The position numbers and the translations under genes were made by a program. 64,000 nt of DNA from Dietzia sp. ANT_WB102 (lineage in GTDB: Bacteria > Actinomycetota > Actinomycetes > Mycobacteriales > Mycobacteriaceae), in NCBI RefSeq assembly GCF_008369165.1, contig NZ_VOBA01000002.1, forward strand, positions 496,001-560,000, in the 5' to 3' direction. Of this stretch, positions 6,672 to 53,812 are shown piece after piece (the stretch's first letter is position 1; the number at the start of each line of letters is the position of its first letter). The notes beneath the pieces were generated by a model. That model did no database searches. It saw nothing but the letters and a program-made list of their open reading frames with translations, and was not told where the DNA came from.

Positions 6672-7817
6672 TTAGCGGATCAGTAGCGGGATGTGCTGCT
6701 CCGCGGGGGTGTTGGCTCCGTGGTGGCCGAGCAGGGAAGACTCCATTCTCTCGGCCTGCGTTCGGGCGAGGATCACGCCGCCGGTAGCGATGGCGATCAC
6801 ATCTCCGAGGCGGCTGGCGTGGTCGCGGTCGGGGCCGAAGAGATGTTCGTCCAGGGCCTGGTCTCGACTGATGACTCGGGCGCGGTCGGCCAACTCAGAA
6901 CGCCACGCCAGAAGGACGTCGCCGGTCGATCCCGGCCGGGAGTAGACGTGGCGGACGCGAGCCTCGCCGGCCACGGACTCGACACCAGCGAGCAGCGCCG
7001 GCGTCGTGTCGATATCGACGACAGTCTCAGCGGTGACCATTCCGTGGTCCGCTGTCAGGAGGAACCTACAGTCGCGGGGGAGGTCAGTGGCCAGATCTGC
7101 GACGAATGCGTCCACGTCGCGAAGGGACTGCAGCCACTGAGAAGATCCAGGACCGTGTATATGACCGATGAGATCGAGGTCGCCGAAGTAGCCGTAAGCA
7201 AACCGTCGGTTGCGCGACGGTCGGCTGAAGGTGTCGAGGACGCCACGCCGGATCTCGTCAAGGGAGTTCGCTGGTCGGTAGTCGCCGTGGGCTCGGAAGG
7301 CTGCACGGGTCAAACCCGAATCGCGGAAATCCTCTCGCATCACGTAGGTCACGTCGACTCCGTCATCGGCGAGCAGTTCTAGGAGGCTGGGCTGCTGCTG
7401 GACCTGGCGAGGTGGGAAACGATCCATCGCCGAGGGGCCGCCCGCGGACTCGAGCGTCCACCGGAGCGGATTGAACGACGTCGGCGGCCCCCCGGAATCG
7501 TCCGAGAGGCGGAAGCTGTATCCCACGATCCCGTGCTTCGAGCACGGTGCACCTACTGCGAGGCTCGTCAGGCTCGTGGCCGTGGTCGCGGGAAAACCCG
7601 CAGAGATAATGTGGCGGGTCATCCCCGCGAGGGTGGGAGCCTCGTCGGCGTAGTGGCGGATAAGTTCGGCGCCCAAACCGTCGATGAGTACGAGCACCGC
7701 GTCTTTCGCCGGTGCTATATGCAGTGGGTTGCGTTGGTCTGTGCCCAGCGCGGAGGCGATGGAGGGCATGACATCCGCCAGGGAGTGTGCGGTCGGTGCG
7801 GTGGGCAGCTGAGTCAT
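6672..7817 (-). CDS. Alkaline-phosphatase-superfamily phosphodiesterase / nucleotide pyrophosphatase
   Basis: 381 residues with the metal-binding framework of the type I phosphodiesterase / nucleotide pyrophosphatase family. VLVLIDGLGAE (about 43-53) gives the first metal aspartate. The threonine nucleophile lies in FPATTATSLTSL, and the later ligands are in DLIGHIHGP, LTADHGM and LLGHHG. No signal peptide is visible, so it is probably cytoplasmic. The substrate is unknown; the family cleaves phosphodiester or phosphonate bonds. The ATG at 7817 follows GGAGGATGGTGAAGGG. It converges on the exported-protein gene to its left with a 22-base gap. Confidence 0.8.
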   Translation of the reverse strand: MTQLPTAPTAHSLADVMPSIASALGTDQRNPLHIAPAKDAVLVLIDGLGAELIRHYADEAPTLAGMTRHIISAGFPATTATSLTSLAVGAPCSKHGIVGYSFRLSDDSGGPPTSFNPLRWTLESAGGPSAMDRFPPRQVQQQPSLLELLADDGVDVTYVMREDFRDSGLTRAAFRAHGDYRPANSLDEIRRGVLDTFSRPSRNRRFAYGYFGDLDLIGHIHGPGSSQWLQSLRDVDAFVADLATDLPRDCRFLLTADHGMVTAETVVDIDTTPALLAGVESVAGEARVRHVYSRPGSTGDVLLAWRSELADRARVISRDQALDEHLFGPDRDHASRLGDVIAIATGGVILARTQAERMESSLLGHHGANTPAEQHIPLLIR

Positions 7818-7905
7818 CCCTTCACCATCCTCCATTCAGCGTGGCGTCGGGCCGGACTCGGGCGACGCCGGTAGTCGACAGGGGAGAACCACGATTCTTG
7901 TCAGG

Positions 7906-9666
7906 TCAGAATGGTGGTGGGTCGATGAGTTCGTCGAGGTGGTCGTGGAGGAGGGTTCGGATGCCCTTTTCGATGTCGCTGTGGTGGGGTGTGTTGCGGG
8001 CCCACCAGCGACTGACGGTGTTGGGGCTGGTCTGGTTGGCTGCGGGGTCGTTGTTGCTCGTGCCTGAAGTGGGCGCGGGTGCGGTGCGGGCGTGTTCGGT
8101 GCGGGCGCGTTCGGTGCGGTGGCGGGTGGCGCGGCGGGACCAGAAGGTCGGCTCGGCGTCGGTGGGGTCGGTGTCGGTGGGGTCGGGGTTGCGGGGTTGT
8201 TGGCGTTGCCATGCCTGGGTCTCGGCATCGGCCTGCTCGCGCCGGTACTGCGCCAGCGGCCCGCAGGGGCGGGTGCGCATGGTGGAGCCGTCCGGGGTGG
8301 TCACGTGCAGGGTGCCGTCGGGCGCGAGGGTGTAGCTCCAGTCGGAGAATGTTTTGAACCGGTGATGGCGCCGGCACAGGCACACCAGGTTGCCTTCGAC
8401 GGTGTGACCACCACGGTCGGGGTCGGCGTGGTTGAACGGGGCGGCATGGTCGAGGTCGCAGTGGTCGGCCGGCACCGCGCAGCCGGGGTGGCGGCAGGTG
8501 CCATCGCGCAACCGGATCCGGCGGGCCAGCGCGGCGCCGGGCCGGTAGGTCAGGGCGGCCCGGGCGTCGTCGGCGGCGCCGATACCGGGATCGAGGCGCT
8601 CGAGGCTGGCGCCGTCGCTGGCGGCGAGCAGGTCCAGCAACGCCTGCAGGGCGGCCTGACCGGTGCGGGTGAACTCCACCCGCACCCCACCCTCATCGCG
8701 GGCATCATTGCCGGTGGCGATGACGGTGACCTGCGGCCGCAACGGCACCAATCCCACACCAGCAGCACCGCCGGCGCCGGGTCGACCGGCAGCGCCGGGG
8801 GGACCGGTGAGGCCGGTATCGCCACAGAGCAGGGACATCAGCGCATCCGCGCGACGCTCGGCCAGGGAATAGTCCTCGTCCTTGTCGCGGGCGGCGCCGT
8901 CGTCGCCGGCGGTGGCCGCATCAACGTTGGCGGCGGTGTTGGCCCGGGCTTGGGCGTCGGCGTACTTGTGGTCGGCCACGCGGTGGTCCAGCGCCTCGGC
9001 CAGCACGGCGGCCTCTTCGGTGGCCAGTGTCGCCGACACACTCGACATCCCGTCGATGCCTTTGTGGAACCGCACGCCCCGGGTGCGCGCGGCCTCCCGG
9101 CGGCGCAGGCGCAGACCGTCGGCGTCGTAGCGGGCGATGATCGCATCAACGTTGCCGCGGACCGCTTTCTCCCCCAACCGGATCCCGCCCTCGATCGCGG
9201 CGAGGTAATCCTCCACGACCTGCTGCTGCACCAACTCCAGCACGTCGACGTGGACGGTGGCCATCTGCGAGGCCAGCACCTGCGCGGCACGCTGATCGAG
9301 CCGCCCCGCCGACAGCGCGGCCAGCACCGCCGGATACCGGGTATGCAGATCGAACGCGAAGGTGATCATCGCCTCGGCCCGCCTAGTCGAGACCGCCATC
9401 ACCGCCACCACATACCCGACCGCCACCTCGACCGGATCGACCACCGCATGCCCGGGCCGACACTCACCCGCCCCCACCCCGGACTCCTCCTGACGCTGAC
9501 ACTGGCGAAACAACTCGTAACAGGCCACCAACCGCTGCGCCGCCGCCCGATTCTCCGCCATCCACCCCGCACGCACGTCCGCACGCAGGCCAGCTAATGG
9601 ACTCGACGAGAACGACGACGACGAGGGGGACGAGGTACTGGTTGCGTGATCAACGTTGTCTCCCAC
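7906..9666 (-). CDS. DUF222 / HNH endonuclease protein (13E12-repeat family)
   Basis: 586 residues. The N-terminus (about 30-400) has the DUF222 pattern: long helices with RRAEAMITFAFDLHTRYP, LSAGRLDQRAAQVLA and SVSATLATEEAAVLAEAL. The HNH nuclease domain follows at about 430-490 (CRHPGC, then CDLDHAAPFNHADPDRGG, then NLVCLCRRHHRFK) with the expected zinc cysteines and catalytic histidine. A Ser-rich N-terminus and a Pro/Thr-rich C-terminus flank these. The family is often present in many copies in Mycobacteriales and is thought to be linked to mobile DNA. Its real role is unproven. The gene lies near the broken end of the siderophore genes. Confidence 0.88.
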   Translation of the reverse strand: MGDNVDHATSTSSPSSSSFSSSPLAGLRADVRAGWMAENRAAAQRLVACYELFRQCQRQEESGVGAGECRPGHAVVDPVEVAVGYVVAVMAVSTRRAEAMITFAFDLHTRYPAVLAALSAGRLDQRAAQVLASQMATVHVDVLELVQQQVVEDYLAAIEGGIRLGEKAVRGNVDAIIARYDADGLRLRRREAARTRGVRFHKGIDGMSSVSATLATEEAAVLAEALDHRVADHKYADAQARANTAANVDAATAGDDGAARDKDEDYSLAERRADALMSLLCGDTGLTGPPGAAGRPGAGGAAGVGLVPLRPQVTVIATGNDARDEGGVRVEFTRTGQAALQALLDLLAASDGASLERLDPGIGAADDARAALTYRPGAALARRIRLRDGTCRHPGCAVPADHCDLDHAAPFNHADPDRGGHTVEGNLVCLCRRHHRFKTFSDWSYTLAPDGTLHVTTPDGSTMRTRPCGPLAQYRREQADAETQAWQRQQPRNPDPTDTDPTDAEPTFWSRRATRHRTERARTEHARTAPAPTSGTSNNDPAANQTSPNTVSRWWARNTPHHSDIEKGIRTLLHDHLDELIDPPPF

Positions 9667-9785: not shown

Positions 9786-9906
9786 TTGACGGTCGATGGG
9801 GCTATAACGCCTGAGTAGACACCGCCCACTTCGACCGGAAGTATGATGCACTCTTCCTAACGGTTTGGGGTGGATGCCCCGCGAAGTTCAACCTCGGAGG
9901 CGTTCC

Positions 9907-10425
9907 ATGTCCAAGTTCCTCACGTATGCCGGATCACTCGCTACCGCACTTCTCGTCGTCTCGGCGGGAAGCGCAGCAGCCCAGGGTTCAGGAGCCGCCG
10001 GCTCGAACTCTGTTCCCGGATCGATGGAATCCAAGGGGGGTTTCTTGGGCCAGGTCGGAGAATTGGCCCCCGCTTCCGTCACGGGTTCTCTGCCCGGCTA
10101 CGCCACCGGGCCGCTGGGGTCCGCCGCCACGCTTATCTGCAACGTCGGTTCCGCGGCGGGCGCCGCCGCCACCGTTATGGGGGCGCCAATGCAGGTGCCT
10201 GTCGGCATCATCTGCATGGCTCTGAACCCGGCCGCTGAGTCCGCGGATGCCTTGCTCCAGGGGGACGTCGAGGGGTCTGTCAGCGCAGTGCTCGCGGGTG
10301 TGCCGCTGGTTGGCGCCTCGCTCGAGGGCCAGGTCGATACCGGGTCCGCCACGGAGTCTGTAGAGGGCTCGGTGGGTGAGCGGCTGGGGTCACTTGCCGA
10401 GACCTCGTTGTCGCCGCAGAACTGA
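9907..10425 (+). CDS. Secreted protein of unknown function
   Basis: 172 residues. A typical Sec signal peptide (MSKFLTYAGSLATALLVVSAG, then SAAAQ with probable cleavage after AAA or AQ near residue 26) is followed by a small Gly/Ala/Ser-rich mature domain with only two cysteines (LICNVGS and IICMALNP), which could form one disulfide. No family is recognised. GGAGG at 9895-9899 precedes the ATG at 9907; an in-frame codon upstream (9865) would place the signal peptide internally and was rejected. It sits between the HNH gene and the truncated siderophore acetyltransferase, with hairpins after its stop. Confidence 0.72.
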   Translation: MSKFLTYAGSLATALLVVSAGSAAAQGSGAAGSNSVPGSMESKGGFLGQVGELAPASVTGSLPGYATGPLGSAATLICNVGSAAGAAATVMGAPMQVPVGIICMALNPAAESADALLQGDVEGSVSAVLAGVPLVGASLEGQVDTGSATESVEGSVGERLGSLAETSLSPQN

Positions 10426-10499: not shown

Positions 10500-10949
10500 C
10501 TACCGCTGGCTCCGGCCGAAAGCGTGCGGCTCGATCGCACCCATCACGGCCTCGGACGTCCCGGGTACCGGGGTGCGGGCCGGCGCGACGAGCAAGTGCA
10601 TCCCGAGATCGCCGGGCTCGTGCGGGTATCGACCGACGAGCTCGACGACGGCTGGGTCGTAGAACACCGCCAGGCCCACGCGCAGGCCGTCGATGCGCAC
10701 CATGTGCAAGGACCGGTGCGGGTTCGCCGACCAGTCGGACAGGGACGCCTCGACCTGCGTCGGGGTCGTGCCCCGCAGCCCCCAGTAGGCCGAACCAGGG
10801 TGATCGAACCAGGCGTGGAGGGTGTGGACGGTGTCGGCGTCGAGTGTCAGGGACTCGAGAGTGACCAACCCGGCGGGAGAGTGGAAGGTGCTGGTCCGGG
10901 TGGAGCTGGTGCAGGTGAGGTCGGTATAGGTCTGTGCGTTGGTGGTCAT
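10500..10949 (-). pseudogene. Truncated siderophore N-hydroxy-amine acyltransferase (DesC/IucB-like)
   Basis: GNAT-type enzyme that acylates N-hydroxy-cadaverine or N-hydroxylysine in hydroxamate siderophore synthesis. The visible part matches the family well: FDHPGSAYWGLRG (about 48-60), the YDPAVVELVGRYPHEPGDLGMHLLVAP segment (about 97-123; quoted only in part as motifs), and the start of the next helix, TSEAVMGAI. It then ends after 149 residues with an unrelated tail (EPHAFGRSQR). Relatives are about 180-200 residues, with a VVVEPDVRN strand and acetyl-CoA contacts in the missing part. No frame downstream carries the lost segment, so this is a real truncation rather than a simple frameshift. 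The start overlaps the stop of the hydroxylase gene by 4 bases. It is probably inactive. Confidence 0.72.
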
Positions 10950-12316
10950 CGTGCCTCCTGATGCCGGGCAGCGGGAGCGCCGAACTGCTGGAACCCGATC
11001 GAGGACTCGATCGGGTAGACCTCGCGGCCGCAGATGCCGCGCAGGATGATGCTGTTGCGCATGGCGCCCATGCCCAGGTCAGGGGCGGTGAGCCCGTGGG
11101 TGTGCTCCTCGGCGTTCTGGACGTGGATGAACGCGTGCGCTCGATCGACCGTGTGGTCGCGGGTCACGCGGTAGCGGCCACGCTCGTCCCGGTCGATCTC
11201 GTCGGCGATCCCGTCGAGGAATCGCGGCGGCGTGGGGGAGTAGCCCGTCGCGAGGACGAGCCCCTCCGTGTGGTGGGTCCACGGCCTGCCTGTGTCGGTG
11301 CAGTGCAGGTCCAGGCGAAGGGCGGCACCGGTGGTGGGGTCGGCCTCCCGGCTGGCACCGTCGAGGGCGGTGGCGGCCGCCAGCAGCCCGGTGTCCAGGC
11401 CCTGCACCGAGCGGCGGTATAGCAGGTCGTGGATCAGGTTAATCAGCTCGGCGTCGATGCCTTTGTACAGGGAGCGCTGCTCCCGCAGCATCCGGTCTCG
11501 TCGGTCCGGGGGCAGCGCGTGGAAGTGGTCGATGTACTCCGGCGAGGTCATCTCGAGCGTGAGCTTGGTGTACTCCATCGGGAAGAACCGCGGCGAGCGG
11601 GTCACCCAGTCGATCCGCGGGCCGGCCGCCCCGGAGGCGAACAGCAGATCGTGGTAGATCTCCGCAGCCGACTGGCCACTACCCACCACGGTCACCGACC
11701 CGAGTGAGAGCAGATCTTCCCGCCGGTGGAGGTAGTCGGAGGCGTGGAGAGCCGCAGTGCCGCCACCGTCGAGCGGGTCCACCTCGATCGGCGTCCAGGG
11801 CGTGGTGCCGATCCCCAGCTCCAGGTGCCGGGCGCGATAGTTCTCGGTGCCCTCGGAGGTGATGGCGGTGACCCGGTAGACGGAGGACTCGTCGTCGCCC
11901 TCCTCCTCCCTTTGGACATCGACCACCTCGCGTCCCCATCGCACGCCGCGGACCCGGTCCGCGGCCCATCGACAGTAGGCGTCGTACTCCGCACGGAGTG
12001 GTTGGAAGTCTTCCCGGATGTAAAAGGGATATAGGCGCCCAATCTCTTTGAGGTAGGCGAGGAACGAGTACGGCGATGTGGGGTCGGCCAACGTGACCAG
12101 GTCGGCGAGGAACGGCACCTGGATGCTGGCATCGTCGAACATGAGCCCGTGGTGCCAGGCGAAGCCGTCGCGGGCATCGAGGAAGACCGCGTCGAGACCG
12201 AGTGGTTCGGACAGGCAGGCCAGGCCGAGGTTGAACGGCCCGATACCGACGCCGAGCAGGTCGTGGACGTGCTCGGGGTGCCGGGACCTCCGGGCGCGGG
12301 GGGCGCTCGCGCTCAT
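10946..12316 (-). CDS. Lysine/ornithine/cadaverine N-monooxygenase of siderophore synthesis (DesB/IucD-like)
   Basis: FAD- and NADPH-dependent N-hydroxylase of 456 residues, about full length. DLLGVGIGPFNLGLACL (near residue 20) is the FAD-binding loop; FAWHHGLMFDDASIQVPFL is the characteristic substrate-side motif of this family; VTVVGSGQSAAEIYHDLL (about 207-224) is the NADPH-binding loop; LATGYSPTPP is the C-terminal FAD-contact motif. Given the adjacent decarboxylase the substrate is probably cadaverine, as in desferrioxamine synthesis, though lysine is possible. It overlaps the decarboxylase stop by 4 bases and the acetyltransferase start by 4 bases, forming one operon. The gene appears intact while both partners are damaged. 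Confidence 0.85.
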   Translation of the reverse strand: MSASAPRARRSRHPEHVHDLLGVGIGPFNLGLACLSEPLGLDAVFLDARDGFAWHHGLMFDDASIQVPFLADLVTLADPTSPYSFLAYLKEIGRLYPFYIREDFQPLRAEYDAYCRWAADRVRGVRWGREVVDVQREEEGDDESSVYRVTAITSEGTENYRARHLELGIGTTPWTPIEVDPLDGGGTAALHASDYLHRREDLLSLGSVTVVGSGQSAAEIYHDLLFASGAAGPRIDWVTRSPRFFPMEYTKLTLEMTSPEYIDHFHALPPDRRDRMLREQRSLYKGIDAELINLIHDLLYRRSVQGLDTGLLAAATALDGASREADPTTGAALRLDLHCTDTGRPWTHHTEGLVLATGYSPTPPRFLDGIADEIDRDERGRYRVTRDHTVDRAHAFIHVQNAEEHTHGLTAPDLGMGAMRNSIILRGICGREVYPIESSIGFQQFGAPAARHQEAR

Positions 12317-13853
12317 GTCAGCACCCCCGCGGTCGTGGCCTGTCGCATCCCCTCGGCGAGGTAGCTCGCGGCGTCGCGGACGTCGGCCAGAACGGCGTCC
12401 ACGTCGTCGTCCTCCAGGTTCGGATCGAGGACCGTCAGCTTGAGACTGGGCCGGCCGTCCACGACCGTCGATGCGACGAGCGAGCGCCCCTCCGCGAATA
12501 GCGCGTCGCGGACGGGGCGGACGAGGGCATCGGCCTCGTCGTCGGTAACGGGACGGTCAGGCGCGGTCACCGCGGGGCGGGGACGGAACAGCACGGTCGA
12601 CAGGTCGGGGCGGCGCACCAGTTCGAGTTCCGGGTCGGCGTCGATCGTCCGTCCGATCCGGGCGGCGACGTCGATCGCCCCGTCCAGCAGGCGCCCGATG
12701 CCGTCGGCGCCCATCACCCGCAGCGTCATCCACAGTTTGAGAGCGTCGAAACGGCGGGTGGTCTGCAGGGACTTGTCCACGGCGTGGTCCTCGCCGTCGG
12801 CGGGGTTGAGGTAGTTGGCGCTCACGGTGGAGTGGCGGAAGCCCGAACCGTCGCGTAACAGCAGCGCCGAGGCGGCCACCGGGAGGAAGAAGGTCTTGTG
12901 GAAGTCCACCGTCACCGAGTCGGCGAGCTCGATCCCGTCGAGCAGGTCCCGGCGCGTGGGGGAGACCAGGAGCCCGCCGCCGTAGGCCGCGTCGACGTGC
13001 AGCCAGACGTCGTGGCGGCGACAGATCCCGCCGACCTCCCGCAGAGGGTCAATCGCTCCGTGGTCGGTCGTACCGGCGACGGCGACGACCGCCGCGACCT
13101 CGTCCCCGGCGTCGGCCAGTGCGGACAGGGTCCGGTCTAGGGTGGCGGGGTCCATGCGATCGCCGTCGCCGGGCAGGGTGATGACGGCGTCCGGGGCGAG
13201 TCCCAGCAGGCGGGCCGCTTTGATCACGCTGAGGTGCGCGTGTTCGCCGGTGACGATGCGCATCCGGGACAGTCGGGCGCCGCGGTCCGTGTCCCGACCT
13301 GCAACCCGGCGCCCGGGGGCCGGTCGGGCGAGACGGTCCTCGCGGGCGGTGAACAGGCCCTGCAGGTTGGAGGCGGTACCGCCGGTGGTGAAGACGCCGT
13401 CCGGGCGAGGGGCGGCCGGGCCGGAACTTGAGGTGACGCGGGAGTGCCGAGGGGTGACGCCGAAACCGATGAGGTCGGTGACCCAGTCGACGAGCTTCTG
13501 TTCGATCAGACACGCCGAGGTGCCCTGGTCCCATGTCTCCACAGCTGTATTGATAGACGTCGCGAGTGCCTCTGCCGCCACCGCCGGGATGGTGATCGGG
13601 CAGTTGAGGTGGGCGAGGTAGCGCGGGTGGTGGTAGCCGACCGCGTGGTCGAGGTAGAGCTCGCGGACCTCCTCGAGTGCCTCGTCCAGCGTGCCCAGTG
13701 GCGAAGTGAGATCGACGGCGGCGTCTGGGCGGCCAGCGTCGACCGCGACGCGGACGAGCGCGGGGCGGTCCGACTGTCGAGATACAGGCTCACCTCGGCG
13801 GCCGCGGCAGCCAGGGCGGCAGCGTGGTCCTCCCGGTTCCGGCTGCTCAGCAA
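12313..13853 (-). pseudogene. Frameshifted pyridoxal-phosphate decarboxylase of siderophore synthesis (DesA-like)
   Basis: Homologue of the lysine / 2,4-diaminobutyrate decarboxylases that make the diamine for hydroxamate siderophores. The main frame reads back from 12313 through VDFHKTFFLPVAA (PLP lysine), HVDAAYGGG and FTTGGTASNLQ to AVGYHHPRYLAHLNCP and TLDEALEEVRELYLD. It then runs without any start into nonsense. The expected N-terminus (LLSSRNREDHAAALA, then EVSLYLDSRTAP) lies in the next frame, from a TTG at 13853. A one-base shift around 13757-13770, beside a GGGG run, would join them into about 513 residues, the normal length. The shortest uninterrupted version, from a GTG at 13581, would lack about 90 residues. 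A sequencing error cannot be excluded. It leads the leftward operon, behind an iron box. Confidence 0.75.
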
Positions 13854-13910
13854 TGAATCGTAAACAGGGACTCCGACCTACTCGGGGACAGTGGCGCAGC
13901 CGAACGCTAT

Positions 13911-13929
13911 GCAGGTTAGCCTTACCTAA
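13911..13929. promoter_or_regulatory. Iron box (IdeR/DmdR-type operator), biosynthesis side
   Basis: GCAGGTTAGCCTTACCTAA matches the IdeR/DmdR consensus TTAGGTTAGSCTAACCTAA at 16 of 19 positions by my count. It lies about 60 bases upstream of the decarboxylase start, in the divergent promoter region, so iron should repress the leftward siderophore genes. Confidence 0.8.
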
Positions 13930-14032
13930 ACAATAGCGGGGTGGGATGAATCACATTCCGGGGCAAGTGGAGTGGAAACCTCCCGCGGAACTATTGCGCT
14001 GGGCGCCCGGGTGTCGCTACGGTAACGTTCGC

Positions 14033-14051
14033 TAAGGTAAGCCAAGCCTAA
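14033..14051. promoter_or_regulatory. Iron box (IdeR/DmdR-type operator), uptake side
   Basis: TAAGGTAAGCCAAGCCTAA matches the same consensus at 15 of 19 positions. It is 55 bases upstream of the siderophore-binding lipoprotein start. Two boxes about 120 bases apart suggest separate iron-controlled promoters for the two arms. Confidence 0.78.
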
Positions 14052-14105
14052 GTCGCTCGGGTTGGTTTCATACCGGGCGACGATTCACACCAGACGGAGC
14101 CCCCC

Positions 14106-15212
14106 ATGACCGCACCCGCTGCACGATCCCGGCTGACGCTCGACGGGCCCGACGACCCGGCGCGCCCGCGGGCCCGGGCCATCCTCGTGGTCCTCGCGGC
14201 ATTCGCACCGCTCCTGGCCGTGCTGTTCGGGTGCTCGACCGGCGCAGTCGGCGACAGCGGGGAAGGCGGCGCGGGAGGCGAGGTGAAGCGGCAGGGCGAT
14301 TTCCCCCGCACCATCTCGCATGCCTACGGCGAGACCGAGATCGCCGAGGCGCCTCAGCGGGTGGCCACGATCTCCTGGGTCAACGCCGACGTCTCCTTGG
14401 CGCTGGGTGTGGTTCCGGTGGGTATGCCCCGCAACTCGTTCGGCGCCAACGCGAACGGATCCACCGACTGGTTCGACGCGGAACTGGAGGAGGTCGGCGG
14501 TGACATGCCTACGCTCTACTCGGAGACCGACGGGATCAACACCGAGGCGATCGCGGCCCTCGAGCCCGACCTAATCCTGGGTGTCTACTCGGGAATGACC
14601 GCGGAGGAGTACGAGACCCTCTCCAAGATCGCTCCCACCATCGCGATGCCGGAGGGTGACGTCGCGTTTGGCACCGCCTGGCAGGACTCGACCCGGCTCA
14701 TCGGCGAGGCCCTCGGGCGTTCCGATGCGGCCGATGAGCTCATCGCCGACGTCGAGGGCCAGATCCAGCAGGTCGTCGCCGACAGCCCGGGCATCCGCGA
14801 CACGACCTTCATCTACGGCACCGTCGACCCGGACGCCGCGGAGAAGATCTACGCCTTCACCGACGTCGACAACCGGCCCCGCTTCCTCGAACAGCTCGGG
14901 ATGGTGCAGGCACCTGTCATCGCCGAGGCCTCCAGCGGATCGCCCGACGAGTTCGCAGTGACCTGGTCGCCCGAGCGCGCCGACGAGCTGGTCTCCGACA
15001 TCCTCGTCACCTACGCCGCGTCCCCGGAGGTACGCCGGGCCATCGAGGCGGACCCGCTGCTCGGACGCATCCCCGCTGTCGAGGCAGGGCGGATGGTCGT
15101 CCAGACCGATGAGCAGCAGGTCCTCTCGATCTCCGCCTCCTCGCCGCTGAGCCTGCCGTGGGCGCTGGAGAACGTCGTGCCCGACATCATCGCGGCTGCA
15201 GATCGGGCCTGA
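14106..15212 (+). CDS. Siderophore ABC transporter substrate-binding lipoprotein
   Basis: 368 residues, a type III periplasmic-binding fold for iron-siderophore capture at the cell surface. The long N-terminus has basic residues, a hydrophobic core (about 26-40) and the lipobox LFGC, with the lipidated cysteine near residue 43. The mature domain has HAYGETEIAEAPQRVATISW at its start and ALEPDLILGVYSGM midway, both typical of FecB/FhuD-like proteins. It is the first gene of a coupled uptake operon (binding protein, two permeases, ATPase, ferric reductase) under the iron box at 14033. The ligand is probably a hydroxamate siderophore, inferred from the adjacent biosynthetic genes. Confidence 0.88.
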   Translation: MTAPAARSRLTLDGPDDPARPRARAILVVLAAFAPLLAVLFGCSTGAVGDSGEGGAGGEVKRQGDFPRTISHAYGETEIAEAPQRVATISWVNADVSLALGVVPVGMPRNSFGANANGSTDWFDAELEEVGGDMPTLYSETDGINTEAIAALEPDLILGVYSGMTAEEYETLSKIAPTIAMPEGDVAFGTAWQDSTRLIGEALGRSDAADELIADVEGQIQQVVADSPGIRDTTFIYGTVDPDAAEKIYAFTDVDNRPRFLEQLGMVQAPVIAEASSGSPDEFAVTWSPERADELVSDILVTYAASPEVRRAIEADPLLGRIPAVEAGRMVVQTDEQQVLSISASSPLSLPWALENVVPDIIAAADRA

Positions 15213-15232
15213 CGCGCGTGACCAGCTGCGCG

Positions 15233-16348
15233 ATGAGCACCGCGCCACTCGCCCTCCCGGCGGGCGGGCCGGCGGTGCCGGCGGTGCCGGCGGTACCGAC
15301 CGTGCAGGGGCGCCGCCGTGTCGTGATCGGCGCGGTGATCTCGTCGACGTTGCTCGTCGTGGGCGTGGCGCTGTCGTTATTCGTGGGAGCGCGAGCCGTC
15401 GACCCGGCGGTGGTGTGGTCGGTGTTGGCGGCGCTCCCCTCGCGGGTGCTCGCCGGTGACCTCACGGCCACCCTCGCCCCCGGGTCGGGCACAGGGATGG
15501 ACGAAGTTGTGGTGGCCGCCCGGGTTCCCCGCACGATCACCGCGATCCTCGTCGGCGCCGCGCTAGCGGTGGCGGGCGCCGGGCTCCAGGGCGCCACCCG
15601 CAATCCGCTCGGCGACCCGGGCCTGCTCGGGCTGACCGCCGGCGCCGCACTCGGCGTCGTGCTGGGGCTAGCCCTCGTGCCCGCCGCGGGCCCGTCAGCT
15701 GTGGCGTTGTTCGCGGTCGCCGGCTCTCTCGCCGCGGGCATGGTGGTGGTGTGTGCCGGCCGGCTCGGCGCCGACTCCGGCACCGGACTCGTCCTCGCCG
15801 GGGCCGCCGTCACCGCGGGATGCACCGCGGTCACCTCATCCCTGGTCATCGCACTCCCCGGCGTTCTCGACCGGTTCCGCTTTTGGGGCCTGGGCTCAGT
15901 ATCCCGCGCGTCCGCGCCCGAGATCGGTGCCGCCGCGCCGTTCATCCTGCTAGGGCTCGTCCTCGTCCTGGCCGGCGCGGCCACACTCGACGCCCTCGCG
16001 CTCGGCGACGACCTGGCCCGCGGGCTGGGAGTGGGACCCGTCGTCGGGCGTGCCGTCGTCCTGGCAGGTGTGGTGGTCCTGTCCGGGGTAGCCACCGCGA
16101 TCGCCGGCCCCATCGCCTTCCTCGGACTGCTGGTTCCGCACCTGTTGCGGCGGCTGGTGGGGGTGGGCAACCGCGTCGTTCTGGGCCTGTCGGTGATCGT
16201 GGGGCCAGTGGTCCTGCTGTTCGCGGACACGGTCGGGCGTGTGGTCGCCCCGCCCGGAGAGATCGCCGTCGGTGTCATGACCGTGGCGATCGGTGTGCCG
16301 TTCCTCATCGCCCTGCTCCGCGCAAACCGGGGGGTGGGCGGCTCGTGA
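15233..16348 (+). CDS. Iron-siderophore ABC transporter permease (FecCD family), first subunit
   Basis: About nine or ten transmembrane segments in 371 residues. Family signatures include RVPRTITAILVGAALAVAGA and GLQGATRNPLGDPGLLGL (the ATPase-coupling and early helix region) and GPIAFLGLLVPHLLR towards the C-terminus, where the EAA-like coupling helix lies. The ATG at 15233 gives a conventional start; the GTG at 15218 is also possible and neither has a strong ribosome-binding site. The first 30 residues contain a short Pro-Ala-Val repeat (PAVPAVPAVP). The stop overlaps the second permease start (GTGA), consistent with stoichiometric synthesis. Confidence 0.9.
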   Translation: MSTAPLALPAGGPAVPAVPAVPTVQGRRRVVIGAVISSTLLVVGVALSLFVGARAVDPAVVWSVLAALPSRVLAGDLTATLAPGSGTGMDEVVVAARVPRTITAILVGAALAVAGAGLQGATRNPLGDPGLLGLTAGAALGVVLGLALVPAAGPSAVALFAVAGSLAAGMVVVCAGRLGADSGTGLVLAGAAVTAGCTAVTSSLVIALPGVLDRFRFWGLGSVSRASAPEIGAAAPFILLGLVLVLAGAATLDALALGDDLARGLGVGPVVGRAVVLAGVVVLSGVATAIAGPIAFLGLLVPHLLRRLVGVGNRVVLGLSVIVGPVVLLFADTVGRVVAPPGEIAVGVMTVAIGVPFLIALLRANRGVGGS

Positions 16349-17421
16349 GCCCCGACGTCCTCGAACGCGCGGCCGACCCCGCCGGCGTGGAGCTCGCCGA
16401 GACCGGGCAGGTCGTCCGCCACCTGTCGGTCCGCCGGCGCAAGCACGCGCTCCACGTGATCGTCGGGCTCGGCGCCACCCTACTGGCGGTGATGGCGGCG
16501 CGCGTGTTGCTGGGGCGCTACACGGTGACCATTCCCGACTTCGTCGCCATCCTCGGCGGTGCGACGATCCCCGGCGCCACGTTCGTGGTCATGGAGGACA
16601 AGCTGCCGCGCGCGGTCCTCGGCGCGCTCGCCGGTCTGGCGTTCGGCGCGTCCGGGGCGCTGTTCCGTCGCGTCCTGGGAAACCCCCTGGCCAGCCCCGA
16701 CATCCTTGGCATCTCGCACGGGGCCTCGGCGGGGGCCGTGGCGGGGATGACGCTGTGGGGACTGCGCGGGGTCGGGGTCGTGCCCGCCGCGCTGCTCGGG
16801 TCCGCCGCCGCGCTCGCTGTCGTCCTGGCGGCCTCCGCGGGACGGCACACCGGCATCGTCGGCCAACGCTTCCTGCTCGGTGGTGTGGCGGTGGCAGCGC
16901 TCGGCACCGCCGTCGTCACTCAGCTCATCGCTCGGCTACCGCTGACCGGAGCGCAGGAAGCGGCCGTGTGGACCGTCGGGTCGTTGTCCGGGGCGTCGGG
17001 GGAGCGCATCGCCTGGCTCGCCGTCGCGCTGGTGGTGTTGCTCCCGCCGGGCATGTGGCTGCACGCCGCTCTCCGGCCCGCCGAGCTGGGGCCCGAGCTC
17101 GCCGTCGGACTCGGATCGCGCCCGATCCCCACCCGCGCCGCCGCGCTCGGGGTGGGGAGCCTGCTCGCCGCCGTCGCGACGGCCGTGGCCGGCCCGCTCG
17201 CGTTCGTCGCTTTGTTGTCCACCCCTGTCGCCGCCGCGCTCGGTCGCGGGCGGCCTCACATCGGGGCGGCCGCCCTGACCGGCGCCGTGATCGTCGTGGC
17301 CGCCGACATCGTCGCCTCCGAAGCCCTCGGCACCGTCGACCTGCCCACCGGCGTGGTGACCGGTGCCCTCGGTGCCCCCGCCATGCTGTGGATCCTCCTG
17401 CGCTCGAGAAAGGTGGCCTGA
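16345..17421 (+). CDS. Iron-siderophore ABC transporter permease (FecCD family), second subunit
   Basis: 358 residues, paralogous to the preceding permease and expected to form a heterodimer with it. It has KLPRAVLGALAGLAFGASGA, then RRVLGNPLASPDILGISHGA, and a C-terminal GPLAFVALLSTPVAAAL in place of the usual GLLVPH, a small departure from the coupling-helix consensus. The GTG start at 16345 overlaps the previous stop, and its own stop overlaps the ATG of the ATPase gene. Confidence 0.9.
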   Translation: MSPDVLERAADPAGVELAETGQVVRHLSVRRRKHALHVIVGLGATLLAVMAARVLLGRYTVTIPDFVAILGGATIPGATFVVMEDKLPRAVLGALAGLAFGASGALFRRVLGNPLASPDILGISHGASAGAVAGMTLWGLRGVGVVPAALLGSAAALAVVLAASAGRHTGIVGQRFLLGGVAVAALGTAVVTQLIARLPLTGAQEAAVWTVGSLSGASGERIAWLAVALVVLLPPGMWLHAALRPAELGPELAVGLGSRPIPTRAAALGVGSLLAAVATAVAGPLAFVALLSTPVAAALGRGRPHIGAAALTGAVIVVAADIVASEALGTVDLPTGVVTGALGAPAMLWILLRSRKVA

Positions 17422-18302
17422 TGAGCATTCCCGCGCCCGCCGCGTGCGTGACCCCGGTCCTGCCCATGGACCTCGGACCCGGTCCCGACGCCGCCTTCCG
17501 CATGCGCGGCCTGACCCTGGGCTACGGTGCCGAACCGGTGATCCGGGACCTCGACCTGGACTTCCCCGTCGGACGGACCACCGTGCTCATCGGGGCCAAC
17601 GGCTGTGGCAAGTCCACGATCCTGCGCGCCCTGGGGCGACAGCTGCGCCCGCTATCCGGGTCGATCGAGACTGACGGTCGCAGACTGTCCGAGGTCAGCG
17701 CCCGCGAGCACGCGCGGTCCGTGGCGTTCCTGCCGCAGTCCCCGCTGGTGCCGGAGGGACTCACCGTGGCCGAGCTTGTCGCGCGCGGCCGGCACCCACA
17801 CCGTCGGTGGTGGGGAAGGGGCGACGACGACGACACGGCCGTCGCCGAGGCTCTGACGATGACCGGCACCGCCGAATTCGCCCATCGACGGGTCGACGAG
17901 TTGTCCGGCGGCCAACGGCAACGCGTCTGGGTCGCACTAGTGCTGGCACAGGAAACTCCGACTCTCCTGCTCGACGAACCGTGCTCGTTCCTCGACCTGG
18001 CGCACCAGCTCGACGTGCTCGATCTCGTTCGCGATCTGCCGCTGCCCGCCGGCCACTGCGACCACGGTACCGGCCGCCGCACCGTGGTGGCGGTACTGCA
18101 CGAACTCGGCCTAGCCGCGCGGGTGGCCGATCACCTGGTGGCGGTCGCAGAGGGCGGCGTGGTTGCCGCGGGCCCACCCGACCAGGTGATCACCCAGGAG
18201 ACCTTGCGTCGCGTGTTCGACCTGGACGCCGACATCATCACCGACCCGGCCACCGGCCACCCCGTGGTACTCCCACGGGGACGACGGAAGAGGACCACAT
18301 GA
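17421..18302 (+). CDS. Iron-siderophore ABC transporter ATP-binding protein (FecE/FepC-like)
   Basis: 293 residues powering the two permeases. Walker A is GANGCGKST (about 58-66), the Q-loop VAFLPQSPLVPEG, the signature LSGGQRQRVWVA (about 159-170), Walker B TLLLDEPCSFLD, and the switch histidine AVLHELG. A short insertion (LPAGHCDHGTGRR) separates Walker B from the H-loop, longer than usual for this family. Start and stop both overlap neighbouring genes (TGATG at 17419, ATGA at 18299). Confidence 0.92.
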   Translation: MSIPAPAACVTPVLPMDLGPGPDAAFRMRGLTLGYGAEPVIRDLDLDFPVGRTTVLIGANGCGKSTILRALGRQLRPLSGSIETDGRRLSEVSAREHARSVAFLPQSPLVPEGLTVAELVARGRHPHRRWWGRGDDDDTAVAEALTMTGTAEFAHRRVDELSGGQRQRVWVALVLAQETPTLLLDEPCSFLDLAHQLDVLDLVRDLPLPAGHCDHGTGRRTVVAVLHELGLAARVADHLVAVAEGGVVAAGPPDQVITQETLRRVFDLDADIITDPATGHPVVLPRGRRKRTT

Positions 18303-19252
18303 CAGCTGTATCCGTAGAGGCGCCGATCGTCGTCTCGCAGACCCGCGTCATCGATGCCCGCCCGCTGGGTGAGTCATATGTCCGCCTCGTGGTGGCCGGG
18401 CCCGAGCTACTGCGGTGGTCCGCCGACGTGGTGGACCCGGGCACTGTCCGTGATGCCTATATCAAGGTCATCGTGCCCCCGACGGGCGGCGGCGGCGCGA
18501 TCCCCGACGCCGACGCGATCCGCGACTGGCTCGCACTGCCCGAGAGTGAACGCGGCTGGATGCGCACCTACACCGTCCGCCGCGCGGACACCGTCGCGCT
18601 GGACGGGGAACACGTTCCCGCACTGACGGTGGACATAGTGGTCCACCCCGGTCGCGACGAGGGGCCGGGATCAGCCTGGGCGCGGTCCGTACGGCCGGGC
18701 GACATCGTGCACATCGCCGGCCCCGGCCGCGGTCACCCGCCGTGGGCGGCCTGGGCGCCCGGCCGCGCCGTGCGTGTCGTGTGCGCCGGTGACGAGACCG
18801 CTGCGCCGGCGCTGCTGGCAATCGCCGAGGAACTCGCCGCGGAACAGTCCGCGGCTGGCTCGGTGTCGGGCGGGGCGGTGACACGGCGTGAGGTGCAGAT
18901 TATCGTGGAGGTGCCCACCCGCCGCGATGCCGTGGAACTGGCAGAGGGCGCCCCCGACTTCGTCACCGTGCTGCCGCGAGAGGGGGAGCCCGGCACCGCG
19001 GTGGCCCGTCGCCTGGCGGGCGTGTTGGATCTGGGCGAAGGGTGTGTGCGAACCGTCCTGGGTGGGCGCCGACCCGCAGAGCGCGAGTGGCAGCCGGCGA
19101 CCGCGGTCTCCGCGGGCGAACCCTACGTCTTCCTCGCCGGGGAGGCGGGGCTGGTCCGGGCGATGCGCCGCCTCGCCGTGGACGCCGCCGGAATCCCCAA
19201 GGGGGCCGTGGCGTTCATGGGCTACTGGCGGCGCGGCGTCGCGGAGTGCTGA
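18299..19252 (+). CDS. Siderophore-interacting FAD protein (ferric-siderophore reductase)
   Basis: 317 residues of the ViuB / siderophore-interacting protein family: a flavin-binding barrel followed by a NAD(P)H-binding domain, which reduces ferric siderophore in the cytoplasm to release iron. MRTYTVRR (about 87-94) is the flavin-binding RxYT motif, DIVVHPG with GPGSAWA the isoalloxazine/phosphate loop, and VCAGDETAAPAL the start of the pyridine-nucleotide domain. The C-terminus FMGYWRRG is typical. It is the last gene of the iron-uptake operon, coupled to the ATPase gene by a 4-base overlap. Confidence 0.9.
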   Translation: MTAVSVEAPIVVSQTRVIDARPLGESYVRLVVAGPELLRWSADVVDPGTVRDAYIKVIVPPTGGGGAIPDADAIRDWLALPESERGWMRTYTVRRADTVALDGEHVPALTVDIVVHPGRDEGPGSAWARSVRPGDIVHIAGPGRGHPPWAAWAPGRAVRVVCAGDETAAPALLAIAEELAAEQSAAGSVSGGAVTRREVQIIVEVPTRRDAVELAEGAPDFVTVLPREGEPGTAVARRLAGVLDLGEGCVRTVLGGRRPAEREWQPATAVSAGEPYVFLAGEAGLVRAMRRLAVDAAGIPKGAVAFMGYWRRGVAEC

Positions 19253-19258
19253 CCGGTC

Positions 19259-19987
19259 CTAGGCGCCACGGTCGGCCGGAGGGTACGACGGGTCCCGCAG
19301 TGCCCTGAGGACGTGCGGGTAGTGCGAGCCGGGGAGACGGTTACCGATGGGATCGAAATGCAGGTTCTCGTCGTCGTCCTCCCACGTGTCCACCGTCAAC
19401 CGGCCCAGCGTCTTCCACTTGCCGAGCGGGGTGGCGTGTTGGAGGGTCCACGTGCCGCCCTCTGCCGTGGGGAACGCCGCCAGCAGGAGCGGGCGACCGG
19501 CGATGAGCACCGGAAACATGGACGTCATGGTGCGGCCCATCGTGCGCCACCCCGTGGTGAGGACGTACCGGCTCAGCGGGCCCGTGCCGGTGCTGGCGAG
19601 GAGGATATCCACCGGCCGGTCGGCGTGGATGCGGACGGCCATCCCGCCGATGTCGGGTAACGCGTCCGGAAGGCCCACCGCGCGGGAGAATCGGATCGTC
19701 GCAGGCCAGCGGCCCGTCACATCCAGCAGGGACGACCCGGTGCGTCCGACCCCGGCCACGCTCAGTGTGGCCTCGGCGATCACGCCCTTGGGATGCAGCG
19801 CCTTCGGGCGCGCGAGTCGCGCCACCGCGGCCACGGCGCCGATCGCGGACCCGGCCAGGCTGGACAGCGGGGCCGAGCGCAGCGCGACCTCCTTCGACTC
19901 CTTCGTGGTGGGCAAGAGAGCGGAGGACTCGGATATGGGGCCCGCTGCGGCGTCGTCGCGGACGGCATTCCGGGTGCGTCGGGACAT
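19259..19987 (-). CDS. Hypothetical protein, possibly catalase-fold-related
   Basis: 242 residues. I see no classical active-site motif. A run including RPKALHPKGVIAEATL and ATIRFSRAVGLPDALPDI, then GGMAVRI, resembles the substrate-channel strands of small heme-dependent catalase-like proteins, but the heme-ligand tyrosine region is not obvious. The N-terminus is charged. I start at MSRRTRNA (19987). The gene is tail-to-tail with the siderophore reductase, 6 bases apart. Confidence 0.55.
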   Translation of the reverse strand: MSRRTRNAVRDDAAAGPISESSALLPTTKESKEVALRSAPLSSLAGSAIGAVAAVARLARPKALHPKGVIAEATLSVAGVGRTGSSLLDVTGRWPATIRFSRAVGLPDALPDIGGMAVRIHADRPVDILLASTGTGPLSRYVLTTGWRTMGRTMTSMFPVLIAGRPLLLAAFPTAEGGTWTLQHATPLGKWKTLGRLTVDTWEDDDENLHFDPIGNRLPGSHYPHVLRALRDPSYPPADRGA

Positions 19988-20027
19988 GGCCCCACGATAC
20001 GCAGCGGTGGGCAGCACGGTTTCGTGT

Positions 20028-20627
20028 TCAGTCGTCGACGCCGCGGGCGGCCAGTGCGTCGCCCAACTGGTCGGCGGTGGTCAACGCTCCGAGCACGGTA
20101 GGCACAACGAGCGCCCGGATCGACATGCCCAGCCCGCGGGCCTTGCGAGCCTCGGTGACCTGGCGCAATTGGCGCGCCAGCAGGGGGATGGCCCGGATGG
20201 TGAGCACCAGCACGAGAGCGATCCGGTCCGGCGAAACGCCGATATGCCGCAGTGGCTGCGCCGCGCGCGTCACCGCATCGAGCATGTCCGAAATGCGGGT
20301 GGTCAGCGCGACCAGTCCCGCCACCATGATCGCCACCAGTAGTGCGCCGCACACGCGCAGGGCCGTGTCGAGGTCGGCGACGATCCACTGCAGCACCAGG
20401 ATTGCGATGAGCATGGGCACGACCGGGCGGACCTGCTCCCAGGCGGCACGTGGGCGGATCCGGCCGACCGCATACAGGATCGCGGTGAGGCCGAGAGCGG
20501 GCAGCACCTGCCACGGTTCACGGATCATGAGGGTCGCGGCGAGGATGAAGATGCACACCAACAGGACCTTCAGGCCAGCGGGTAGTCGGTGCAGGAGCGA
20601 ATCCCCCGGCTGGTAGGTGGCGAACAC
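20028..20627 (-). CDS. bioN: Biotin ECF transporter transmembrane protein BioN (EcfT)
   Basis: 199 residues with about five transmembrane helices. The coupling motifs of EcfT proteins are visible: RQVTEARKARGLGMS carries the ARG box (about 159-161), and ALAARGVDD at the C-terminus is the second. N-terminal YQPGDSLLHRLPAGLKVLL is family-typical. It follows bioM directly and completes a BioY-BioM-BioN energy-coupling-factor transporter. Confidence 0.9.
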   Translation of the reverse strand: MFATYQPGDSLLHRLPAGLKVLLVCIFILAATLMIREPWQVLPALGLTAILYAVGRIRPRAAWEQVRPVVPMLIAILVLQWIVADLDTALRVCGALLVAIMVAGLVALTTRISDMLDAVTRAAQPLRHIGVSPDRIALVLVLTIRAIPLLARQLRQVTEARKARGLGMSIRALVVPTVLGALTTADQLGDALAARGVDD

Positions 20628-52126: not shown

Positions 52127-52247
52127 GTTGAGGCGAGCGGGGTGGGTTTGCCGCGAGGCGAGATCGAGCTCAACCACCAGTGACCGATCGCGAGATGCGA
52201 CCGGAGATTTTGGATAGGTACCGCGCCGGGGCTGCTAGGAGCACACT

Positions 52248-53204
52248 GTGTTGATGGCACACGGGCAGGAATGGATCGGTGATGTGGTCGAGTGGGCCAC
52301 ACGGGCCAGCGAGCGCCTGACCTGGCTGGACCGGCCCAGTTACCGGCTCGAGCACGTCATAGCGTGGGGTTTTAACCTGCTTGGAGCGGGCAGCGATCGG
52401 ATGCGCAATGCGCTGAACGGCACCTACATTGGCCATCCGGTGCACCCGGCGCTGACCGCGGTGCCGGTGGGGGCATGGTCGGCCGCCGTGGTCCTGGACG
52501 TGGCTGACATCGCCAACCGCCAGCGACCCGGATTTCGTGAAGCCGCGCAGCTCACCGTGGGGGTTGGCATCCTCGGCAGCGCCGCGGCTTCGGTGACCGG
52601 GCTTGCAGATTGGCAGTACACACATGACGAGATGCGCCGGGCTGGGCTGGTGCACGGACTCGTCAACATCGCGGCTTTGGGGCTGTGCATCGCGTCCTGG
52701 TGGGACCGACATAGGGGATTGCACGGACGCGGCCGGGTACTGAGCGGCCTCGGGTACGGGCTGACAGTGGCCTCCAGCTTCCTTGGCGGCAACCTCGTCT
52801 ACCGGCACCAGGTCGGGGTCGACCATTCGACCAATGAGCTGGGGCCCGCCAAGTTTGTGCCGGTGTTGCCGGCGGACCACCTCGACGATGGTGTGCCGCA
52901 GCGGGTCGTGGCCGATGAGGTGGGCATAGTGCTGATCGCCCACAACGGCGCGGTGCACGCGCTCGGGGAACGGTGCCCGCATCTAGGGGCGCCGATGGTG
53001 GACGGTTGGCTCTACCGCGACTCGTTGGTGTGCCCGTGGCACGGGTCGTGTTTTGATCTCGGCACCGGGACCGCGATACGGGGCCCGGCCAGTGCTCCGC
53101 TGCCAACCTTCGAAACGCGGATTCAGGACGGCCAGATCGAGGTCCGTCGGCAACGCGGCGTGCGCTCGGAGCCCCCAGATGAGGTGAGCGCATATGAGGG
53201 CTGA
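52248..53204 (+). CDS. DUF2231 membrane domain fused to a Rieske 2Fe-2S domain
   Basis: 318 residues. The N-terminal two thirds carry a DUF2231-like integral membrane unit: NGTYIGHPVHPALTAVPVGA (about 58-77) begins it, with about four helices to residue 195. A Rieske domain occupies about 215-305: CPHLGAPMVDG and CPWHGSCFDLGTG give the C-x-H and C-x2-H cluster ligands. Membrane-bound electron transfer is a reasonable guess. GGAG lies 6 bases before the GTG at 52248 (an ATG two codons later is the alternative). It overlaps the next gene by 11 bases and lies within the tRNA-flanked islet. Confidence 0.82.
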   Translation: MLMAHGQEWIGDVVEWATRASERLTWLDRPSYRLEHVIAWGFNLLGAGSDRMRNALNGTYIGHPVHPALTAVPVGAWSAAVVLDVADIANRQRPGFREAAQLTVGVGILGSAAASVTGLADWQYTHDEMRRAGLVHGLVNIAALGLCIASWWDRHRGLHGRGRVLSGLGYGLTVASSFLGGNLVYRHQVGVDHSTNELGPAKFVPVLPADHLDDGVPQRVVADEVGIVLIAHNGAVHALGERCPHLGAPMVDGWLYRDSLVCPWHGSCFDLGTGTAIRGPASAPLPTFETRIQDGQIEVRRQRGVRSEPPDEVSAYEG

Positions 53205-53712
53205 AGATGCACGGGCGGAAGACTCGGAGGCGGCGGATGCGAACGAGGTACTCGCTGCGCACCACAGAATGCTGCGCGAGTTGACAGACCAGATTGACGG
53301 CGCGCCGACGGACAGCGCCGGGCACCGCGAATTGATCGACCGCCTCGTGCTCGAGCTAGACATTCACATGCAAATCGAGGACTCGCTGTATTACCCGGCG
53401 GTGGCGAAAGCCAGTCCTCTGGTGGCGGTGGCGCACGCCGAACACCGAGAGGTCTCCGATCGGCTCGCCGCTGCGTTGCGTTGCGAGGCGACAAGCGACG
53501 CGTTCGAAGTCGAGTGGCAAGCGTTCGCTACGACTCTGCATCATCACGCTGCCGAAGAGGAGCGCGACATGTTTCCGCAGGCCCGCCTGATCGGGCAACG
53601 CGAGCTCGATGAGGTGGGCGCGGCGATGGCCGCGATGCAGCAAAGGCTTCGCAACTCCACGCTGACACGGTGGCGGATCCGCGTCAAGACAATGGTCCTG
53701 CGACGCCTCTGA
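53194..53712 (+). CDS. Hemerythrin-like HHE domain protein
   Basis: 172 residues, all-helical. Iron-ligand motifs: VLAAHHRMLREL, LELDIHMQIEDSLYYPAV (H-x3-E), VAHAEHREV and LHHHAAEEERDMFP (H-x3-E). The pattern suits a di-iron or oxygen/NO-sensing protein. It is translationally linked to the Rieske gene, suggesting a joint redox or NO/O2-related job. The basic C-terminus (TRWRIRVKTMVLRRL) might associate with membrane or nucleic acid. Confidence 0.85.
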   Translation: MRAEDARAEDSEAADANEVLAAHHRMLRELTDQIDGAPTDSAGHRELIDRLVLELDIHMQIEDSLYYPAVAKASPLVAVAHAEHREVSDRLAAALRCEATSDAFEVEWQAFATTLHHHAAEEERDMFPQARLIGQRELDEVGAAMAAMQQRLRNSTLTRWRIRVKTMVLRRL

Positions 53713-53812
53713 CCGCACCCCATCCCAATATTTTTTCAGAGGAGTAGGAGCGACACGGAGAAGCCTTTACGGAACTCAGACGCTCAGCGGAACATTCTCA
53801 ACTGCTCGAATG

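Follow-up and report, generated by a model that had tools for sequence, protein, structure and literature searches.

We analyzed a 64,000-nucleotide stretch of the genome of Dietzia sp. ANT_WB102 (hereafter, the window; G000:C2:496001-560000) and found a siderophore locus, at window positions 10,500 to 19,252, in which the biosynthetic arm is broken and the adjacent uptake arm is intact. The strain (G000) is probably a structural non-producer of siderophores whose uptake genes persist, which makes it a candidate xenosiderophore consumer, that is, a ‘cheater’ or ‘pirate’; actual piracy by ANT_WB102 is something we infer from its genes. The assembly comprises 3,276,615 bp in 4 contigs, is rated 100% complete, and carries the window on a contig of 596 kb. 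It was examined within a set of 23 Dietzia genomes, G000 included, with G019 (one contig; locus label L144) serving as the reference because it is nearest to G000 among the genomes compared. The protein identity between the two is 95% for the N-hydroxylase and 91% for the binding protein, and the best named match of the G000 hydroxylase among the matches listed, from which very near records may be missing, is from Dietzia maris (87%). The locus consists of the following features, in window coordinates.

10500..10534, minus strand: 3′ tail of a yjbR-family gene, fused in frame to desC by a deletion (by comparison with G019)
10533..10949, minus strand: start of a DfoC-like desC-desD fusion gene, of which only the 5′ end with the N-terminal GNAT portion is left (by comparison with the full fusion in G019)
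10946..12316, minus strand: desB/dfoA-type diamine N-hydroxylase, open, 456 amino acids (PF13434; 95% identical to G019)
12313..13853, minus strand: desA/dfoJ-type pyridoxal phosphate (PLP) diamine-forming decarboxylase, a pseudogene with a single-base loss near 13.72 kb
13911..13929, minus strand: desA-side iron box resembling IdeR/DmdR sites (3 mismatches to the consensus)
14033..14051, minus strand: uptake-side site resembling an iron box, weaker (4 mismatches)
14106..15212, plus strand: siderophore-binding lipoprotein (DesE/FhuD-like), open (PF01497, Peripla_BP_2; lipobox identified by eye)
15233..16348, plus strand: FecCD permease 1, open (PF01032)
16345..17421, plus strand: FecCD permease 2, open (PF01032)
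17421..18302, plus strand: ATP-binding cassette (ABC) ATPase (FecE/FhuC-like), open (PF00005, ABC_tran)
18299..19252, plus strand: siderophore-interacting protein (SIP), a SIP-type ferric-siderophore reductase, open (PF08021, FAD_binding_9, and PF04954, SIP)

The ancestor would have carried a complete Dietzia desferrioxamine-type locus, with desA, the N-hydroxylase and a fused desC-desD gene reading leftward, the uptake and reductase genes reading rightward, and an iron box between them. The desA frameshift and a 2.5-kb deletion that removed most of yjbR along with the remainder of desCD would have abolished synthesis in the G000 lineage. The intact uptake arm would import a ferri-hydroxamate of foreign origin, most likely of the ferrioxamine type, from which SIP would then free the iron, as the protein families suggest. 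A sequence-only reading of this DNA had proposed broken biosynthesis beside intact uptake, and this proposal is now backed by intact relatives and whole-genome searches. Its frameshifted decarboxylase, the lack of a DesD/IucA-type synthetase at the locus, and a rightward arm that is tightly coupled and has all its motifs were each borne out by the data below.

Comparison with G019 defines what the leftward arm has lost. In G019, the syntenic locus is intact and its left arm encodes a decarboxylase of 513 amino acids, an N-hydroxylase of 456 amino acids, and then a single 861-amino acid protein with GNAT, IucA_IucC and FhuF parts. Relative to G019, G000 has a deletion of 2,543 bp, whose ends meet at 10533/10534 and overlap by 2 bp. 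It took about 730 codons, or about 85%, of the 861-codon fused gene, comprising the 3′ part of desC and the whole of desD, and with them most of a yjbR gene (PF04237) that comes after desCD in G019. What survives is an open reading frame (ORF) of 149 amino acids that joins the start of desC in frame to the yjbR tail, which contributes the last ten residues. PF13523 covers positions 6–109 of 145 in this fragment versus 6–145 in G019, leaving the locus without a complete acyl-CoA N-acyltransferase. The sequence-only reading had correctly seen a shortened acyltransferase, yet it took DesC and DesD to be encoded separately and the loss to be about a quarter of the former; in Dietzia, they are one fused gene, most of which is gone, and the end of the present ORF comes from yjbR. 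A stand-alone desC beside a lost desD gene is ruled out by the single fused ORF of the intact relative. The desC-desD fusion is already known and not new: outside Dietzia, both parts are fused in 33 of 72 actinobacterial loci (L009–L080, among the best 80 matches listed), 35 failed the fusion test, and 4 did not have both parts visible.

The second lesion lies in desA. One base was lost early in the gene relative to G019, so that the 5′ part and the 422-amino acid remainder stand in different frames, and the locus lacks the intact PLP diamine-forming decarboxylase that a functional DesABCD/DfoJAC locus contains. The putative diamine N-hydroxylase of such a locus is still present, as judged by PF13434. 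Only one assembly of the ANT_WB102 species is in the comparison set, and a one-base indel in one gene could by itself be an error, which raises the question of whether the frameshift is a sequencing error and the deletion a misassembly or a mutation of laboratory passage. We regard this as highly improbable. When 33 window ORFs were compared with G019 in a frame-aware manner over 37,082 aligned bases, the out-of-frame share exceeded 2% only in desA, where it reached 12%, which makes a general error rate an unlikely cause of the frameshift; these control ORFs were hand-picked (mostly at least 80% identical to G019, plus the locus genes), were not verified as genes, and include two that overlap. 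The deletion, moreover, joins two syntenic flanks cleanly inside the 596-kb contig, and the rest of the G000 genome yielded no synthetase. A tblastn control for frameshifts across the whole window was discarded as insensitive: in this GC-rich DNA shadow frames stay open, and desA was not flagged. Two split tblastn matches, to nadA/NUDIX-like ORFs near 0.5–2.4 kb (named by eye) and to an ORF at 44.5–45.7 kb, were shadow extensions of ORFs that are open in the window.

Whole-genome searches at the family level returned neither an intact desD nor complementing desA and desC genes elsewhere in G000. The IucA/IucC-type synthetase family of NRPS-independent siderophore (NIS) synthesis, PF04183, which is present in 18 of the 23 Dietzia genomes, has no match in the whole G000 genome, and neither does the Condensation domain of nonribosomal peptide synthetases (NRPS). 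At the Pfam level, with these two families searched, no other NIS or NRPS siderophore route was found in G000. The only PF13523 match above the cut-off is the locus fragment, with another falling below it, and the genome-wide hydroxylase search gave one match of the hydroxylase family. Pyridoxal_deC has three matches, namely the desA pseudogene, a glutamate decarboxylase-like protein and a sphingosine-1-phosphate-lyase-like protein (the latter two named by reading the sequences); no second DesA-type decarboxylase was found among them. A siderophore could still be made by a route invisible to family searches and imported by the transporter of this locus; three relatives without a local synthesis arm (G001, G002 and G020) have a different NIS cluster, so that the genus holds more than one pathway. 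We judge such a hidden route very unlikely in G000, given that NIS synthetases and NRPS condensation domains were not found in it and the hydroxylase family gave a single match. The HtaA heme-binding domain also had no match in the G000 genome; in Dietzia sp. DQ12-45-1b, an HtaA-type heme-binding protein on membrane vesicles is reported to be in use (PMC8027190).

The rightward arm encodes a full ferric-siderophore ABC uptake system plus SIP: all five genes are open and carry their domains. By the chosen start codons, permease 2, the ATPase and SIP each start at or inside the stop of the preceding gene, a spacing that points to an operon. The desA-side iron box is the sole match with at most 3 mismatches in the 64 kb (0.00 expected), and its counterpart in G019 has 4 mismatches. 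Scans of five producers (G009, G004, G010, G016 and G007) with up to 4 mismatches allowed, and of the surroundings of the binding protein in the four other genomes that have uptake genes only, with up to 5, also gave box-like sites. Judging from the box, the uptake arm may still be iron-repressed through IdeR.

In 18 of the 23 Dietzia genomes, the binding protein has a close orthologue (identity of about 75% or more). The synthesis arm adjoins the uptake gene in 13 of these 18, and desA, the hydroxylase and desCD are open nearly end to end in all 13. The only in-alignment stops among them are one each in desCD of G006 and G007; these alignments extend beyond residues 837 and 836, respectively, where the stricter alignment ends, and do not fix the stop positions. 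The arm is broken or missing in the remaining five genomes, G000, G001, G002, G017 and G020. G002 keeps fragments of desCD and the hydroxylase, and such remnants make loss well supported in G002 and G000. The other three have a clean gap free of remnants, which may reflect prior absence or replacement by recombination instead of loss; in G001 and G017, a yjbR-like ORF (name assigned by eye because it resembles the G019 protein) directly adjoins the binding protein. The different NIS cluster of G001, G002 and G020 lies on other contigs (L156 in G002; L157/L158/L166 in G020 and G001) and is desCD-like, with 37–47% identity to desCD. No such cluster was found in the 78%-complete assembly of G017. 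None of the 23 genomes was seen to keep the synthesis arm without the uptake gene, although G008 and G021, whose contigs carry the arm and break off short of the uptake gene, are uninformative in this respect.

The uptake-only genomes do not form a single clade on the rpoB tree, which holds 22 of the 23 genomes (G006 had no match; G014, G015 and G007 are partial). The binding-protein and hydroxylase trees concur on the main clades, and there G001 groups with the arm-bearing G003 and G006 (96/90). G012 is placed with G008 on the rpoB tree and with G016 on the other two, a conflict implying that descent of the locus was not purely vertical and involved some exchange. Dietzia could be a natural replicate series of producer-to-consumer evolution, in which the uptake site is fixed and the adjacent synthesis arm has been lost repeatedly; we hold the chances for and against this to be evenly balanced. 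Retained uptake arms can be followed over different lengths. Permease 2 and the ATPase are visible in two of the four other uptake-only genomes before contigs end, and SIP is complete in G020 and out of view in G001 and G017, whose contigs stop inside permease 1. As a separate observation, the G013 hydroxylase (L159, ~6886–8298) lies in a single open frame and gave two alignment segments in one comparison and one stop-free segment in another, a pattern suggestive of either a short insertion that keeps the frame or a region of divergence.

The ancestral product was likeliest of the desferrioxamine type, as suggested by the nearest solved relatives of the enzymes. The best solved relative of the decarboxylase is 5o5c, labelled a desferrioxamine enzyme; the hydroxylase matches first 6xbb, which bears only the label ‘Monooxigenase’, and second 5o8p, again with a desferrioxamine label. 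We take 5o5c and 5o8p to be DfoJ and DfoA. The best solved matches of the G019 desCD protein are DfoC (5o7o), over residues 10–752 and so covering both parts, and DesD, over the second part, with the DesD chains 6nl2, 6p63, 6xrc and 7tgn among them. The desferrioxamine locus desEFABCD of Streptomyces combines the DesA, DesB, DesC and DesD functions with a binding lipoprotein, a SIP protein and iron boxes, and has desC and desD as separate genes. The Dietzia locus is like it in functions, lipoprotein, SIP and iron boxes, and unlike it in the desCD fusion. A parallel in gene structure is DfoJAC of Erwinia amylovora (PMC6391442), which likewise comprises a decarboxylase, a hydroxylase and an acyltransferase-synthetase fusion, all three matched by Dietzia proteins. 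Unlike DfoJAC, the window has a frameshifted decarboxylase and a third gene reduced to its 5′ end, and the uptake system in Dietzia is a Gram-positive lipoprotein ABC transporter.

Several observations weigh against the picture of an ANT_WB102 that lives on foreign ferrioxamine through this locus. The G000 genome has 10 FecCD matches, 9 of them over the cut-off and two in the locus, so that the strain may not rely on this uptake arm. The uptake-side box was not recovered in G019 within 5 mismatches. The third solved match of the hydroxylase is 7us3, a putrescine N-hydroxylase, and no NCBIfam equivalog exceeded its cut-off for the locus enzymes, the best models (histamine N-monooxygenase and diaminobutyrate decarboxylase) scoring far below, which leaves room for another diamine and for a siderophore other than a desferrioxamine. 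In G002, the SIP gene (L152, 6072–6230) gives a match over residues 81–130 only, at 42% identity, and looks reduced or replaced. This fragment-like gene indicates that retained uptake arms are not always complete. Finally, no difference in selection between the two arms was detected on the G000 branch, where parsimony, with up to five outgroup genomes, counted nonsynonymous and synonymous changes as 26.5/50.5 in the biosynthesis genes versus 60/146 in the uptake genes (p = 0.47, Fisher's test; counts were also obtained for two flanking genes, which stayed out of the pools).

The pairwise ratio of nonsynonymous to synonymous rates (omega) between G000 and G019 is 0.13–0.25 for the synthesis remnants and 0.12–0.20 for the uptake genes, and contrasting the two genomes gave p = 0.70 for biosynthesis and p = 0.81 for uptake. 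Relaxed selection on the surviving synthesis genes was thus sought and not detected by any of the three tests, which makes the damage look recent. These data speak neither for nor against maintenance of uptake by selection in G000. The synonymous divergence (dS) from G019 is uneven along window positions 10946–20627, at 0.13 for the hydroxylase, 0.15 for permease 2, 0.49 for permease 1 and 0.59 for a cbiQ-like gene; such variation across neighbouring genes suggests homologous recombination within the locus.

The whole locus might instead be decaying, with uptake intact only because synthesis broke recently; uptake would then no longer be needed and would follow. Relaxation is detectable in neither arm, and the hydroxylase is open though useless without its partners, so the time elapsed may simply be too short for uptake to show its decay. 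The reduced SIP gene of G002 fits this course, as do G014, G015 and G022, in which no hydroxylase match, no PF04183 and no close uptake orthologue were found (the G014 assembly is 83% complete). The median omega of the four pooled uptake genes is also slightly higher once uptake-only genomes are involved: 0.153 for pairs of producers, 0.171 for an uptake-only genome paired with a producer, and 0.222 for pairs of uptake-only genomes; here and below, the medians come from pairs that are not independent, and carry no significance test. The binding-protein gene, on the other hand, is open in all four of G001, G002, G017 and G020, with a median omega of 0.216 against producers (40 pairs), near the 0.204 found between producers (42 pairs). 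On balance, we consider decay of the whole locus unlikely and favor a non-producer that retains uptake.

G000 has the structure of a non-producer in that its synthesis genes are deleted, the adjacent uptake genes are kept, and its relatives carry the full locus and are predicted producers from their open genes. The same pattern is known for pyoverdine in natural Pseudomonas communities, where the synthesis loci of four complete non-producers have lost large stretches and the receptor is retained, and where cheating is backed by feeding and competition assays (Butaite et al. 2017, PMC5583256). As in G000, parts of the synthesis locus are gone in those strains, adjacent receptor or uptake genes are kept, and relatives are producers. 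The two cases differ in that Pseudomonas involves an NRPS siderophore and an outer-membrane receptor, whereas G000 is an actinobacterium with an NIS hydroxamate locus. In Salinispora, strains are reported to have one of two siderophore pathways, desferrioxamine or salinichelin, within the genus (cited in PMC7396663); this alternation is comparable to G001, G002 and G020 and unlike G000, which has no replacement synthetase. Siderophore cheating by structural non-producers is already known in Pseudomonas (PMC5583256), and the present case concerns another genus. In the portion surveyed of the literature on Dietzia with siderophore or desferrioxamine, no report of a loss of siderophore synthesis was found. 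Apparently fresh lesions together with an intact close relative would allow a test of whether loss of synthesis with uptake kept is selected, and of the point at which retention of the uptake arm begins or ceases; several such genomes are available in the genus.

The surroundings of the locus are mostly colinear with G019, at 79–89% DNA identity, falling to 70–77% at ~5.2–10.4 kb, on the left flank of the locus, and at the right end of the window. The left landmark is a small ORF with conserved synteny, secreted-looking by eye and without a Pfam match:

9865..10425, plus strand: small ORF

Further left, a DUF222 gene (window 7906–9666) ranks with the more diverged neighbours of the locus: its protein is 69% identical to that of G019, against 72% and 82% for the two genes flanking it. 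About 1.7 kb of the window (52131–53810) has no counterpart at the same place in G019, and G019 carries extra DNA of ~3.9 kb near window position 3.87 kb and ~4.8 kb near 23.4 kb.

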